Shown here in pieces: positions 13,075 to 17,706 of a stretch of DNA of 32,852 nt. The stretch is from an uncultured Pseudomonadota bacterium (GTDB lineage Bacteria > Myxococcota_A > UBA796 > GCA-2862545), in NCBI GenBank assembly GCA_903861005.1, contig CAIOSP010000120.1, positions 1-32,852 on the forward strand. Direction: 5' to 3'. A program made the translations under genes and the position numbers. How positions within the stretch are numbered: the stretch's first letter is position 1; each line of letters opens with the position of its first letter. Under the pieces are notes generated by a model. It ran no database searches, had not been told where the DNA came from, and worked only from the letters and a program-made list of their open reading frames with translations.

Positions 13075-13578
13075 CTAGGGCTTCACGTCGTCGCCCGCCT
13101 CACTCAACCTCGTCCGTCGGTCGTAGTCCCCCAGCAGCGCCGAGGTGAACCCGAAGTCGGTGATGGCGAGCAGCACGAGCTCCTCCGTCTCGGAGGTGTT
13201 GTGCGTCTGGTGGAAGATCCAACGCGGCACGAACGCGACGCTGCCTTGGCGAATGGCGCACCATTGCTCGCCAACTCGGACCTCTCCACTGCCCGCCAAC
13301 AGCACGAACAGCGACTCGTGCGCGTGCCTGTGAAGCTCGTTGCGCTTCCCTGGCGCGATCCGAACCAACCGAGGGTCCATGGTCTGGATGTCCGGGAACG
13401 CGAGGCGGTCGACCGTGAAGTCGATGTCGAGCTTGTCGTTGCGGTTTCGGTACATCACCCGGCCGTCGCCGAGCGCGTCGGTGGTCCACGCGTCGGCCGG
13501 ACGGTCTGTCCCGAGCGGGTCGCGGGCCGCGGCGATGTCGATCAGCGCCTGCAACGCTGCGGGGATCGGTTGAGTCAT
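13075..13578 (-). CDS. single-domain cupin
   Basis: A 167-residue protein with a single cupin barrel. Motif 1 is PGKRNELHRHAHESLFVLLAGSG (residues 76-98, given here as key residues H83, H85, H87 and E88), and motif 2 is GSVAFVPRWIFHQTHN (112-127) with H123. The His set would bind Fe(II), Mn or Zn. The conserved G and P positions around the strands are present. The substrate is unknown; such cupins may be dioxygenases, isomerases or small-molecule binders. It is the last of four genes: its ATG (13576-13578) overlaps the stop of the oxygenase gene (ATGA). There is no signal peptide. The start was chosen over an upstream in-frame Met at 13626, which would overlap the oxygenase gene and add an unrelated leader. 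Confidence 0.85.
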   Translation of the reverse strand: MTQPIPAALQALIDIAAARDPLGTDRPADAWTTDALGDGRVMYRNRNDKLDIDFTVDRLAFPDIQTMDPRLVRIAPGKRNELHRHAHESLFVLLAGSGEVRVGEQWCAIRQGSVAFVPRWIFHQTHNTSETEELVLLAITDFGFTSALLGDYDRRTRLSEAGDDVKP

Positions 13579-14546
13579 GGCTGGAGCTCCGTCGACTTTG
13601 TGGGGGTGGTTTGGTGGTCGATCCACAGACGCAGCATCAAGCGTGGCGCACCTGCTGTGTCGACGTACTCGTCGCGGTCGTGGACGGTGGTGGTGTTGTC
13701 GATGAAGAGCAGTTGACCGGGTTGCATCATGACGCTCAGCACGTGCTCCGGATCCTGAAGCGCGTCGTCGAGCGCGTTGAATGCGGCGACGTCGAGCGCA
13801 TCCAAAGGCTCCCCAACCACCTGATGCCCGCGCTCGATCCAGTAGCGCATGTAGCGTAGCCCGAGACGGCCATCGTAGGAGAACACGGGAAACCGGTTCT
13901 GTGCGACCCTCTCCGTGGCGCGGTCGCTTCCCGGCGTGACGATGTCACGTACGAACGACCCGTAGAGGCGTCGCAGGAGCTCGGGGCTCTTCGCGCGCAG
14001 GACCTCGTGGGCGCGGGCGGCGGAGGCGATCCGTGACCGCCCGCCGGACGCGGCTTGGCGGACGCACGCGAGGCCGACCACGCCCGGGCGTACGTGCTTG
14101 CCCGAAGAGTCGGTGTGCATGCCGGTCGAGGCCCGCGTCTGCGAGACTGGGATGGCCGCGTCTCGGTATGACGCCCCGCTGTCTCGAACCTCGTACAGTC
14201 GCCCGTAGGTCTCGATCGTCGGGCCGAACCTCAAGCCGAGCTTGAGGAAGGTGAGCCGAAGCGTGTTCTCGTCCAGCGACTCAAATCCTCGCACCCACGC
14301 GACGCCCCATCCGTGGTCCAGCTCTGCCGCGATCTGATCGCCGAGCGCGTCCAACCCTGGCGTGCGGACTAATCCACGCTCCAGCCGATTCGCGGCGTCG
14401 TCAAACGAAGCCGCCCATGCGGCCAGCGTCGCTGAGTCGCGCAGCGCGGCTGGAGACGCATCGAAGCGCCACCGAGGGCTCTGATTCATGTCGGCTGCGG
14501 CCCACGACAGCCGCGCCGCGTGCTCGGGCGGAGCCAACACGGTCAT
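13575..14546 (-). CDS. TauD/TfdA-family Fe(II)/2-oxoglutarate oxygenase
   Basis: A 323-residue protein with the pattern of clavaminate-synthase-like / TauD oxygenases. Iron ligands H144 and D146 lie in GMHTDSSGK and distal H289 in TTTVHDRDEY; the 2-oxoglutarate-binding Arg is R302 or R306 in PRLMLRLWID. The segment VGLACVRQAASGGRSRIAS (157-175) is typical of family members that hydroxylate amino acids or peptidyl substrates. It would couple decarboxylation of 2-oxoglutarate to oxidation of an unknown substrate in the cytoplasm. The start ATG overlaps the stop of the methyltransferase gene (ATGA at 14543-14546), and its own stop overlaps the cupin start. Together with the diiron protein upstream this gives two potential oxygenases in one operon. 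Confidence 0.88.
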   Translation of the reverse strand: MTVLAPPEHAARLSWAAADMNQSPRWRFDASPAALRDSATLAAWAASFDDAANRLERGLVRTPGLDALGDQIAAELDHGWGVAWVRGFESLDENTLRLTFLKLGLRFGPTIETYGRLYEVRDSGASYRDAAIPVSQTRASTGMHTDSSGKHVRPGVVGLACVRQAASGGRSRIASAARAHEVLRAKSPELLRRLYGSFVRDIVTPGSDRATERVAQNRFPVFSYDGRLGLRYMRYWIERGHQVVGEPLDALDVAAFNALDDALQDPEHVLSVMMQPGQLLFIDNTTTVHDRDEYVDTAGAPRLMLRLWIDHQTTPTKSTELQP

Positions 14547-15301
14547 GGCAGCTCGACCGAAAAGAGCACGTGGAGGGGGTATCCACGAAGCGGTCCAAAG
14601 AAGTCGGCGTCGAGCGCGAGGTGCTCGACGGTGACCGCGAGCTCCACGACGCGCGGGAGCGCCACGAACCCGGCCTCGGCGAGGGCGTCAAAGTAGTCGG
14701 AGAGGGTCTTGTGAACGCATCGCACCGGCACGTCCGCGCCGTCGCGCCTCCAGATTCGGCCCTCGAGGGTGCGATCGACGGCCGAGAAGTAGTCCGCGCC
14801 GTTCGTCTCGAAATAGAACGGGGCGGCGGGAGCGCGCATGTAGGCGAAGCAGGGGTGCGGGACGGTGAACACGAATCGGCCACCCGGTGCGAGGCGCTCA
14901 CGCGCGGTGCGCATGACTGTCTTCATGTCCGCCCGAGTCAGGTAATTAAATAGGAAGACGGCCATGATTCGGTCGTAGCTTGCCCTGGGAAACCGATTCG
15001 TCCCCACCGCGTCCGCGGCCTCGAAGGACAGCGCCGTCGACGGGTAGGTCTGCGCGGCGTCACAGGCCGCACGGACCATCTCGGGTGAGGCGTCCACACC
15101 GTGAACCGACGCGGCGCCTGCGTCCACGGCCAGGCGCGCGACGTACCCCTCGCCGCACCCCAGGTCGAGCACGTGCCGTCCATCCAAAGGACCCAGCGCC
15201 TCGATCACCCTTGGCCTGGCGGTGAAGTCGCTCAGGAGCACACGCTCGCTGCGCGCCCAACGGCTCGCGTTGGCGTCATAGATATCCTTGGTGGACAGCA
15301 T
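14543..15301 (-). CDS. class I SAM-dependent methyltransferase
   Basis: A 252-residue methyltransferase starting MLSTKDIYDANASRW. Motif I is VLDLGCGEG (44-52), with the acidic residue D70 at the end of strand 2 in VHGVDASPEMV, and motif post-I/II FLFNYLTRADM. This is the small-molecule (Methyltransf_11/25-like) type. The C-terminal part, with two aromatic-rich segments (PFYFETNGADYFSAVD), probably forms the substrate cap. The substrate is unknown. The first base of its ATG is the last base of the upstream stop codon (TGATG), and its stop overlaps the oxygenase start. The local run encoding LFNYL is A/T-rich for this window, a faint hint that this operon has a different history. A much longer upstream extension in the same frame only shadows the diiron protein gene. 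Confidence 0.88.
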   Translation of the reverse strand: MLSTKDIYDANASRWARSERVLLSDFTARPRVIEALGPLDGRHVLDLGCGEGYVARLAVDAGAASVHGVDASPEMVRAACDAAQTYPSTALSFEAADAVGTNRFPRASYDRIMAVFLFNYLTRADMKTVMRTARERLAPGGRFVFTVPHPCFAYMRAPAAPFYFETNGADYFSAVDRTLEGRIWRRDGADVPVRCVHKTLSDYFDALAEAGFVALPRVVELAVTVEHLALDADFFGPLRGYPLHVLFSVELP

Positions 15302-16545
15302 CAGAGCACCGCCTCCGCTGCTGCCGGATGGAGCGCGCGGGCGAGCATCCAGTCCCAGAACGCGCAGCGAAGCTGAAGCGACTTCAACATGCCGCGACGC
15401 AGCTCCACACGGCCGCTCTCGGTCATCGCGAAGTCGGCCGAGATCGACTGGATGGTCGCTTGGTGATGGTCGTCCACGGCCGTGTGGAGCGGAAAGAACA
15501 CCGTGTCCCTGGGAGCGAGGTCCCCGAGCCCCCGGAGCGCGGTCACGAAAGGCCCATAGATGGTGCGTACGATGTTCTCGGTGCCCAGTCCGATGGCGCC
15601 CAACGCTTCGGCGGGCGTCCCGTTGGCGAGGAGCTGCAGGAACGAGTCCCGCCAGCACACCACCTGATCGGCTTCAGGCGCCGTGCCGGGCTCGACGCCC
15701 ATGGCCCGCGCGAAGCGCTGGAAGAGGATGGGGTGCGCGATCCCTTGGATCCATTCGCGCTCCACACCGTGCACGGCGAGCTCTCCGTATTCTTCCTCGT
15801 CGTACGAGCCCGACTCTTCGCTGAGGTTCTCCAGCAGCGCCCGCCGATGCGCGGGGTTCTCCAGCCGCGAGATCACCGTGGTGAGATACCGAGGAAAGTG
15901 GGACGAGTAGGCGAAGTACTGCCGCGCAAAGTCCGCGAGCGCCCAGCGGGCGTCGGGCAGCGTGCCTTCGTTCAGGGCGACCAAGTACGGGTGATGCGTC
16001 GCGCGATGGCGGAGAGACTGCTCGGCGAGCTCTGCGACGCAGGATGTCGCGATATCGGCCGTCTCTCGGCTGCCGCTGAGGCGCTTGTTGCGCAGCTGGT
16101 CCAGGGACGTGAGCAACACATTCAGGTCCACGGGGTCGGACGCGAACGCGTTGACGAGCTCGACTCGGTCGATGCGGCGGAGCTGCGACGCGCAGTCTGC
16201 GAAGACGTCACAACGCCGAGGGGCGTTGTCCAGGAAGGCCATCTCACCCACGAGGTCACCGGTGGTGAGTTCGTGCCCGGCTCCGGGTGAGTCGGCCACG
16301 GTCACCGACCCGCTCTCGATGAGGTAGAGGTGCGTCTCCATCTGGCCGCGTTGGATGATCCGGGCGCCGGCCTCGACGGCCTCGACGCGACCCAAGCTCG
16401 CAATCCGGCTTTGGCAGGTCGGCGGCAGCGTGTCGATCCAGGGGCTCACTTCTTTTGACTCGAGCATGTTCTCGGTGGCCTCTCGCGCGCGAAGGTGATG
16501 GGAAGACACGTCATGGGTGGACGCGGGACGGGCGGTCGGGTCCAC
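15301..16545 (-). CDS. cyclic-nucleotide-binding domain fused to haem-oxygenase-like diiron oxidase
   Basis: A 414-residue two-domain protein. Residues about 35-155 form a CRP-like cyclic-nucleotide-binding fold with a phosphate-binding-cassette-like segment, GEMAFLDNAPRRCDVFA (100-116), and no DNA-binding domain after it. Residues about 165-410 match the haem-oxygenase-like iron-containing redox family (UndA, SznF, CADD types): WALADFARQYFAYSSHFPRYL, an acidic E240-E244 block, AHPILFQRFARAMG with H271, and H354-xxx-D358-xx-H361, the same spacing as the H/D/H ligands known in CADD. It would use two irons and O2 on an unknown substrate. The GTG start at 16545 has no good ribosome binding site; ATG at 16467 is possible and would keep both domains. 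It is first in the four-gene operon. Confidence 0.85.
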   Translation of the reverse strand: MDPTARPASTHDVSSHHLRAREATENMLESKEVSPWIDTLPPTCQSRIASLGRVEAVEAGARIIQRGQMETHLYLIESGSVTVADSPGAGHELTTGDLVGEMAFLDNAPRRCDVFADCASQLRRIDRVELVNAFASDPVDLNVLLTSLDQLRNKRLSGSRETADIATSCVAELAEQSLRHRATHHPYLVALNEGTLPDARWALADFARQYFAYSSHFPRYLTTVISRLENPAHRRALLENLSEESGSYDEEEYGELAVHGVEREWIQGIAHPILFQRFARAMGVEPGTAPEADQVVCWRDSFLQLLANGTPAEALGAIGLGTENIVRTIYGPFVTALRGLGDLAPRDTVFFPLHTAVDDHHQATIQSISADFAMTESGRVELRRGMLKSLQLRCAFWDWMLARALHPAAAEAVL

Positions 16546-16722: not shown

Positions 16723-17706
16723 TCACTGCGGCAAGTCGGCCAGGTCGAACAACACGCTGGACTCGCTCCCCTCGACGTGGTGCGTCAGCACGACCACCGC
16801 GCCCTGATCGACCTGCGCGGGCAGCGCGATCGGCGCCCACGCGTCGGCGGTCGTCGGCGGGGGCCACGCGTCGGAGATTGTGGCGCCGTCCGGCCGCGTC
16901 ACCACCCAGGCGCTGCGCAGGTCCTGGGGTGACGGGCCGCCGCGCTGCTCCACCACCACGTGACGCCGCCCACCTCGGCCGCGCTCCACGCGGGCGCGCA
17001 CCGTGCGGCCGTCGGGGAACACGACCTCGTGGTTGACCGACACGATCGGACAGCCCGTCCCCAGTGCCCTCTGCTCTTTGCGCGCCGTGTCCGTCGCCAG
17101 CTGGGACCGCGGCACCGCGGCGGGTGTCGGCGCCGCGCCCGGCGGCGCTGGCTGCGGCGCGCCGACCGACAGGTCGAACACCGCCGCCACCGGCGTGTCG
17201 TTCGCGTGGAACCGCATGAGCTCCACCGAGCCCCCAGGTGGAATGGAGAACGGCGGATCGATCGAGGTCCACACGCCGGGCGGCTGGTCGCGGTTCACGT
17301 CGATCGCGCCTCCGACGAGCACGCCAAAGCGCCAACCGTCCTCTCCGCCGAACGGCGCCGCCTGCCCAAACCCGTCCGGCCCGTTGACGCGGAGGATCAG
17401 CTCGCCGAACGGCTGCGCCTCGGCGCGATCGTTGCGCAGCTCCAGCACGGGGAACGCGGCGCCCTCCGCGAGCGTCAGGCGCGCGGAGATGTCGCCGAGC
17501 TGGACCACGTCGCCCGCGCGGACCGATTGGCGTCCCGCTAGGGCCTTTTCGTCCGCCTCGATCGCGTCTTCGATCTGGGCTTGCGCTCGCTGGGCGCGTT
17601 CCTTGTCGACCACGCCCCACGTGACACGACCTCTGGGCGCCGAGGCTTCGATGAAGACGAAGAGTGTCAGGGTGACGATGGCAGTGGCAACGATGAGACG
17701 GCGCAT
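16723..17706 (-). CDS. exported protein of unknown function, 327 residues
   Basis: The N-terminus MRRLIVATAIVTLTLFVFIEASA is a signal peptide or uncleaved membrane anchor, so the product acts outside the cytoplasm. A short charged helix (about 32-58, DKERAQRAQAQIEDAIEADE) is followed by beta-rich sequence with alternating hydrophobics up to about 180, a Pro/Ala linker (about 183-200) and a second beta-rich part (about 215-327) ending DLADLPQ. It has one Cys in the mature part. I do not recognise the family. The ATG at 17706 has GGAGG 8 bases upstream, a good ribosome binding site, and the octamer ACCTAGGT further upstream. It is preceded by a small lipoprotein gene in the same direction, with a hairpin between them. 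Confidence 0.8.
   Translation of the reverse strand: MRRLIVATAIVTLTLFVFIEASAPRGRVTWGVVDKERAQRAQAQIEDAIEADEKALAGRQSVRAGDVVQLGDISARLTLAEGAAFPVLELRNDRAEAQPFGELILRVNGPDGFGQAAPFGGEDGWRFGVLVGGAIDVNRDQPPGVWTSIDPPFSIPPGGSVELMRFHANDTPVAAVFDLSVGAPQPAPPGAAPTPAAVPRSQLATDTARKEQRALGTGCPIVSVNHEVVFPDGRTVRARVERGRGGRRHVVVEQRGGPSPQDLRSAWVVTRPDGATISDAWPPPTTADAWAPIALPAQVDQGAVVVLTHHVEGSESSVLFDLADLPQ

Follow-up and report, generated by a model that had tools for sequence, protein, structure and literature searches.

Four overlapping genes in the window, a 32,852-nucleotide stretch of DNA from an uncultured bacterium, raise the question of what a haem-oxygenase-like diiron oxidase (HDO), a methyltransferase (MT), a TauD-type oxygenase and a cupin may accomplish together. 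It is well supported that the operon encodes one oxygen-using small-molecule pathway. The more detailed reading that we prefer, tentatively and at somewhat less than an even chance, is that the oxidative enzyme of this pathway is gated by a second messenger, and that the HDO and the cupin form a pair acting on a methylated amino-acid-like substrate.

Organisation of the operon

The genes were called as four co-oriented open reading frames on the minus strand (positions 13075-16545, Table 1). The stop codon (TGA) of the HDO gene and the start codon (ATG) of the MT gene share one A (TGATG), and the MT-TauD and TauD-cupin junctions each consist of an ATGA common to both genes; the extent and the junctions agree with the initial annotation, which had also rightly counted an MT among the products. 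The natural start of the cupin gene is the ATG at 13578, and a longer GTG frame reaching 13626 falls within the TauD gene. A sister species carries all four genes in identical order, with dN/dS of 0.13-0.24. The substrate may, as first suggested, be a cellular metabolite.

Table 1. Genes and domains of the operon, with the evidence for each assignment
Feature	Position	Strand	Evidence
Gene 1: cyclic-nucleotide-binding domain and HDO fusion, 414 aa	15301..16545	-	Pfam cNMP_binding 4.9e-14, Haem_oxygenas_2 9.3e-19; AlphaFold mean pLDDT 87.7
Gene 1, cNMP-binding domain, aa 35-158	16072..16443	-	VIA match to HCN4 CNBD; phosphate-cassette motif
Gene 1, HDO domain, aa 160-405; E244, H271, E323, H354, D358, H361; helix-1 Q209	15331..16068	-	VIA; alignment conservation
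Gene 2: class I SAM methyltransferase, 252 aa, signature LLSD(Y/F)TARP	14543..15301	-	Methyltransf_25 2e-18; family alignment
Gene 3: TauD-type Fe(II)/2OG oxygenase, 323 aa; H144, D146, H289, R302/R306	13575..14546	-	TauD 2.9e-34; invariant ligands; FrbJ nearest solved relative
Gene 4: cupin, 167 aa, H83/H85/H87/E88...H123	13075..13578	-	Cupin_2 7.5e-15; family alignment; gentisate 1,2-dioxygenase nearest solved

Gene 1 had been described as a diiron HDO, which is correct for its C-terminal part, while the N-terminal cNMP-binding domain, and hence the link to sensing, had been missed. The Pfam match to this domain spans residues 56-136, and its model superimposes on the CNBD of HCN4 with a VIA Z score of 17.8 (rmsd 2.1 over 120 residues). 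The phosphate cassette retains E101 and R110 (GE...R), and the residues after the arginine are R-C (PRRC), departing from the PR(S/T)A consensus. Judged by predicted fold and cassette, the domain is of the cyclic-nucleotide-binding type, with nucleotide binding being putative. The genome from which the window derives has Guanylate_cyc matches in six reading frames.

Metal sites and nearest relatives of the enzymes

The E-H-E-H-(D/E)-H metal motif is a hallmark of the HDO superfamily (PMC11363339). All six residues are present in gene 1 and are invariant in 78-80 sequences, apart from one V at H271 and variation at D358 (74 D, 3 E and 1 V in the family alignment); together with the predicted seven-helix haem-oxygenase-like fold, they place the domain in this superfamily. 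The helix-1 position matching the seventh carboxylate of SznF is Q209 (Q in 59, E in 11 and H in 5 of 79 sequences), in a register taken from the profile alignment only. The TauD enzyme has an HxD...H iron triad and a 2OG-binding arginine, as predicted for a TauD/TfdA member, and H144, D146, H289, R302 and R306 are invariant in 45-46 relatives. In the cupin, H83, H85, H87, E88 and H123 are invariant in 11 sequences; H83, H85 and H123 would form a three-His mono-iron type site, and the protein is paired with the HDO, adjacent or fused, in three clades. The three metal sites that had been called intact-looking, including the iron ligands named for TauD, are conserved, or nearly so, among relatives.

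In VIA comparisons, the HDO model scored Z 20-25 against HrmI, CADD, BesC, FlcD and UndA. The best match was HrmI, an N-oxygenase that hydroxylates lysine (Z 25.4, rmsd 2.5 over 223 residues), yet with only 17% identity. By sequence, the nearest solved proteins are CT610/CADD (4-aminobenzoate synthase; profile E-value 7e-20) and BesC (3e-19), which share the fold and the metal motif and differ in having 18-20% identity; the top NCBIfam match is the CADD-family TIGR04305, below its cut-off. CADD and BesC are C-C bond cleavage enzymes. We know of no MT, TauD or cupin partners for these two enzymes, and of no partner genes that HrmI has in common with the module. It is possible, if rather unlikely, that the HDO cleaves a C-C bond of an amino acid in the manner of CADD and BesC and that the cupin, the nearest solved relatives of which are gentisate 1,2-dioxygenases (4e-11, profile against PDB sequences), oxidises the resulting aromatic or enol compound, all without N-oxygenation or N-N chemistry. 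On the other hand, the position of the sacrificial tyrosine of CADD (Tyr27) is an invariant Leu (L188) in the profile alignment of the HDO family, and the modelled fold scores of HrmI (25.4), CADD (24.4) and BesC (23.1) do not decide on the chemistry.

The precedent for the preferred reading, an HDO-cupin pair acting on a methylated substrate, is SznF, in which a diiron HDO and a cupin act in series on methylated arginine (PMC11705231). SznF/StzF of streptozotocin synthesis and the methyltransferase SznE make up an enzyme set comparable to that found here, a diiron HDO and a three-His cupin following an N-methyltransferase. At the six metal positions of the HDO, residue type and order agree with SznF, and H-x3-D-x2-H is exact. 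Unlike SznF, the HDO and the cupin of the window are separate genes without detectable sequence relation to it, the MT is of the generic class I type and shows no detectable kinship with arginine methyltransferases, and the TauD enzyme and the cNMP domain are additional. No SznF-named chain was among the 18 PDB chains found with the HDO profile at E<=10, in a copy of the PDB sequences from which SznF may be missing; SznF was also not among the 50 VIA structural matches listed, which does not settle kinship, and its cupin was absent from the best 60 PDB sequence matches of the cupin profile at E<=0.01. The two profile searches thus gave no hit that would place the enzymes in the SznF family, and the comparison with SznF and UndA originally drawn holds for fold and architecture, whereas in sequence the HDO is nearest CADD and BesC. 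The solved CADD-like Nostoc protein 3b5p was discarded as a candidate for the Nostoc-type HDO, as it was absent from the HDO sequence profile search.

The ham cluster, in which separate HamA (HDO) and HamB (cupin) genes lie in the operon making the diazeniumdiolate signal of the fragin-valdiazen group (PMC11659414, PMC11705231), resembles the window in keeping both genes apart within one operon. Unlike the window operon, it encodes an AurF-type N-oxygenase as well as an NRPS and lacks a TauD enzyme; HamB was reported to be non-essential for valdiazen.

Conservation of the module and its links to sensors

A search of other genomes for the neighbourhood, as had been suggested, found it well beyond the window, with HDO-MT-TauD sets in Myxococcota, Planctomycetota, Verrucomicrobiota, Flavobacteriales, Microbulbifer and cyanobacteria. 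With the metal ligands conserved as well, neither of the two outcomes named beforehand as refuting the initial annotation was observed. Of the 46 loci that are not of the Nostoc type, 44 have TauD after the MT, with a 4-nt overlap in about half, and 37 have an HDO nearby. Cyanobium, other cyanobacteria, Microcystis and a Bacteroidia bin keep the whole four-gene set with its order altered. As in SznF, a single protein combines HDO and cupin in Microcystis and two genomes of Myxococcota, and four other Myxococcota genomes carry MT-TauD and HDO-cupin operons on separate contigs; HDO-cupin and MT-TauD are the two tight pairs of the module. Several lineages have no cupin, which is therefore not essential to the module. 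Among 379 genomes of the phylum, HDO (E<=1e-60) and TauD (E<=1e-30) occur together in 9 and singly in 13 and 12 (Fisher p 4e-13, kinship uncorrected), and the distance matrices of HDO, MT and TauD correlate at 0.63-0.84 (0 of 2000 permutations). Across phyla, the HDO, MT and TauD genes are inherited together, often along with that of the cupin, and the single small pathway of the initial annotation is strongly supported by the cross-phylum neighbourhoods, the shuffled orders that keep the set, the split operons and the fusions. No close TauD was found on plasmids. In the model of the Microcystis fusion the HDO part is good and the cupin part poor, with pLDDT <50 from residue 347 onwards. The cause is the mixed alignment, which left the cupins unaligned, and this model was not used for the cupin.

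The HDO is often tied to sensors. Fusions to a cNMP domain occur in the window and at four other loci, and in Brasilonema calcium-sensing EF-hands, HDO, MT and TauD form a single 1049-aa protein. H-NOX is a sensor of NO or O2; operons encoding it with an HNOBA histidine kinase neighbour the module in cyanobacteria of the Nostoc type, in Acaryochloris, in a planctomycete, in Co_bin.47 and in G059, the two genes adjoining it at three loci as well as at 36 of the 40 loci of the Nostoc type. The window operon differs from these in having no H-NOX alongside, its genome encoding one on another contig. At the genome level within the phylum, co-occurrence of H-NOX and the module was non-significant (5/12 vs 70/367, p 0.07). 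The Nostoc-type X2OG protein had no Pfam or PDB match.

Proposed pathway and further readings

In the preferred pathway, the MT would methylate an amino-acid-like substrate, the HDO and the cupin would act as a pair on the methylated compound, perhaps by N-oxygenation and subsequent rearrangement as in SznF, and the TauD enzyme would hydroxylate the same scaffold. In the window organism, the HDO may be controlled through binding of a cyclic nucleotide by the N-terminal domain of gene 1. Rather than a bulk compound, the pathway probably yields a signal or a metal-binding metabolite of low abundance. N-oxygenation draws on the SznF precedent and on HrmI being nearest in fold, with CADD near-tied; the lack of detectable sequence kinship of the HDO and the cupin with SznF in the profile searches and of the MT with arginine methyltransferases, the C-C cleavage performed by CADD and BesC as nearest relatives in sequence, the lineages without cupin, the weak phylum-level co-occurrence with H-NOX and the off-consensus cNMP cassette count against the proposal.

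The module might instead be catabolic or detoxifying, induced by NO, O2 or second messengers and degrading a methylated amine or similar compound opened by the TauD enzyme, which is nearest to FrbJ among solved proteins (8e-33) and, in this reading, related to the dioxygenases acting on butyrobetaine and trimethylaminoethylphosphonate. The sub-threshold best NCBIfam matches of this enzyme, TmpA and gamma-butyrobetaine dioxygenase, and the accompanying sensors agree with such a role; the presence of an MT favours building over breaking, and no transporter or dehydrogenase recurs beside the module genes in relatives, which makes it improbable. Modification of a peptide, lipid or other macromolecule is less probable still: genes for substrate activation or export are not conserved next to the module, as such a target would allow, but no conserved short peptide frame or carrier protein was noticed nearby (frames of at least 80 aa in relatives), and known HDOs use amino acids or fatty acids (PMC11363339). 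Gene overlap is common in bacterial genomes, but a chance meeting of four unrelated genes is contradicted by the cross-phylum conservation, split operons and fusions and can practically be dismissed.

As to the preferred pathway, searches of the literature library found no published description of an HDO with TauD, cupin and MT, of HDO-cNMP fusions, of the H-NOX neighbourhoods or of alr2276-2279. The pathway is compact and oxidative and occurs in several bacterial phyla, with bloom-forming Microcystis and Nostoc among its carriers, and the sensor domains fused to its metal enzyme suggest a signal-producing system over ordinary secondary metabolism. The sensing role of Alr2278, a structural model for H-NOX, has been questioned in the literature; the link to the module, if true, would provide a concrete partner for the related cyanobacterial proteins. 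There is also a slim chance that the module supplies a nitroso or other NO-releasing signal independently of NO synthase. Under the control of a cyclic nucleotide or Ca2+, its HDO-cupin pair would then turn a methylated amino acid into an N-oxygenated, NO-donating metabolite, with H-NOX, encoded next to the module in several phyla, as the receptor; if true, this would give bacteria an equivalent of signalling by NO synthase and guanylate cyclase.

Layout of the operon and its metal sites

The four reading frames lie on the minus strand, exactly where the initial annotation had placed them in the window, whose genome is of 5.8 Mb and 97% complete, and are joined, in order, by the junctions TGATG, ATGA and ATGA. 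The first gene had been correctly recognised as encoding a haem-oxygenase-like diiron oxidase (HDO), but its cNMP_binding domain (Pfam, residues 56-136) had been missed. In the AlphaFold model of this protein (pLDDT 87.7), the cNMP half matches the nucleotide-binding domain of HCN4 (Z 17.8, rmsd 2.1, 120 residues), and the second half aligns with HrmI (Z 25.4), CADD (Z 24.4) and BesC (Z 23.1), with rmsd of 2.0-2.5 over 210-223 residues. The phosphate cassette of the cNMP domain keeps its Glu and Arg and is off consensus after the Arg. We infer that a ligand bound to this domain controls the HDO.

The published HDO metal motif, E-H-E-H-(D/E)-H (PMC11363339), is represented in the window by E244, H271, E323, H354, D358 and H361. 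Five positions are invariant in 78-80 relatives, save for one V at H271, while at D358 there are 74 D, three E and one V. The helix-1 position, where some HDOs have a carboxylate, is Q209 in the window and Q in most relatives, with the register taken from the profile alignment. H144, D146 and H289 of the TauD-type oxygenase (TauD), together with two C-terminal Arg, are kept throughout 45-46 sequences, as are H83, H85, H87, E88 and H123 of the cupin in 11 of 11.

Comparison of the window with its sister species gave dN/dS of 0.13 for HDO, 0.14 for the methyltransferase (MT), 0.19 for TauD and 0.24 for the cupin, as against 0.35 for the gene upstream of the operon. This upstream gene (16723-17706, minus strand) has no Pfam match and diverges fast, with 86% nucleotide identity between the sister species.

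Features of the operon and of related loci (L, fetched loci; C48, a contig of the window genome, G000)
Feature	Location	Strand	Remark
HDO with N-terminal cNMP domain	window 15301-16545	-	Pfam well above cut-off
MT	window 14543-15301	-	Pfam well above cut-off
TauD	window 13575-14546	-	Pfam well above cut-off
Cupin	window 13075-13578	-	Pfam well above cut-off
Unnamed HSD...H...R protein, 330-350 aa	L062 5897-6949	-	relatives in about 33 Nostoc-type loci
Only H-NOX of the window genome, then HNOBA-PAS-histidine kinase gene	L130 1420-3481 (G000 C48)	+
Brasilonema fusion, 1049 aa: four EF-hands, HDO, MT and TauD in a single chain	L124 6723-9872	+
HDO fused to 2OG-like HSD...H...R protein, Pleurocapsales genome	L086 8747-10423	+

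Distribution, fusions and relics

The module is real and widespread, and apparently new to description. Within the class, the full operon was found only in the window genome and its sister species, and is hence rare; a third genome, G059, carries HDO-MT-TauD. The MT family was scanned against 84,980 species genomes and the best 80 loci were taken, so counts are lower bounds: at least 46 loci of type A, six of them fetched by genome search, and at least 40 of type B. Among the listed type A loci, which belong to Myxococcota, Planctomycetota, Verrucomicrobiota, Flavobacteriales, Microbulbifer and cyanobacteria, TauD adjoins MT in 44 of 46 and HDO is close by in 37. In the 40 listed type B loci (Nostoc and relatives), the HDO that comes after MT is more distant (about 25% identity), and TauD's place near MT is taken in 33 of them by an unnamed protein with the conserved pattern HSD...H...R, that of Fe/2OG oxygenases. 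It matched nothing in Pfam or PDB and may represent a new Fe/2OG-like oxygenase family. Very similar HDO-MT-TauD clusters (L058, L059, L060, L083 and L085) occur in MAG bins named Gemmatimonadetes, Planctomycetes, Kiritimatiellia and Verrucomicrobia, and therefore reflect either gene transfer between phyla or mis-binning.

There is good support for placing the four enzymes in a single pathway. HDO and cupin are fused in Microcystis, G340 and G037, and given also the EF-hand-HDO-MT-TauD and HDO-2OG-like chains, the functional link is direct. All four functions are kept in varied order in L067, L117, L119, L111 and Microcystis. Four Myxococcota genomes have a lone MT-TauD pair, with an HDO-cupin pair (61-65% and 55-58% identical to the window) on another contig. 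Strong HDO and TauD matches coincide in nine of 379 phylum genomes and occur singly in 13 and 12 (p 4e-13, kinship ignored). On the HDO tree, a short search with several long branches, cupin association changes at least 7 times and sensor type at least 10 times; both therefore recur in separate clades.

Possible relics were also observed. A truncated cNMP-domain frame directly ahead of MT-TauD (L041 960-1290, plus strand), in a genome (G234) where HDO was not found, is possibly left from a lost cNMP-HDO gene. A 31-codon frame over the TauD end, resembling the cupin N-terminus and then stopped (L052 5883-5978, plus strand), might be a cupin relic in the same place as the window cupin. A lone C-terminal half of HDO in G055 (L031 1000-1461, minus strand), 55% identical to the window and without MT or TauD nearby, is possibly a broken gene.

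Relation to known systems

The module belongs among HDO-based oxidative pathways, already known as a kind. Among solved structures, the nearest sequences are CADD and BesC for the HDO and gentisate dioxygenases for the cupin. A CADD-like self-sacrifice of the HDO is unlikely, since the position of CADD's sacrificial tyrosine is an invariant Leu in the profile alignment. SznF uses its HDO to hydroxylate nitrogens and its cupin to turn the product, by rearrangement, into an N-nitrosourea able to shed NO (PMC11705231). The module resembles SznE/SznF in that a methyltransferase accompanies a tight HDO-cupin pair, which occurs as a fusion in more than one clade. Sequence gives no support for assigning either protein to the SznF family, so SznF-like working may be hypothesised from architecture, not from membership. 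A second precedent is the ham cluster, where HDO and cupin are separate genes, as in the window, and the product is a diazeniumdiolate signal; HamB was reported to be non-essential for valdiazen (PMC11659414).

Sensors around the module

The link of an HDO-based pathway to sensing is unusual. HDO carries a fused cNMP domain in the window, L050, L059, L060, L067 and L159, and fused EF-hands in L124. Genes for H-NOX and an HNOBA histidine kinase adjoin or diverge from the module in L028/L114, L061 and L066, and are found at it in 36 of the 40 type B loci listed; the cyanobacterial H-NOX is clearly related to Alr2278. Within the phylum, co-occurrence of H-NOX and module by genome is only suggestive (p 0.07), and the link to NO therefore rests on adjacency in a few lineages. 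In the window genome, several reading frames match Guanylate_cyc.
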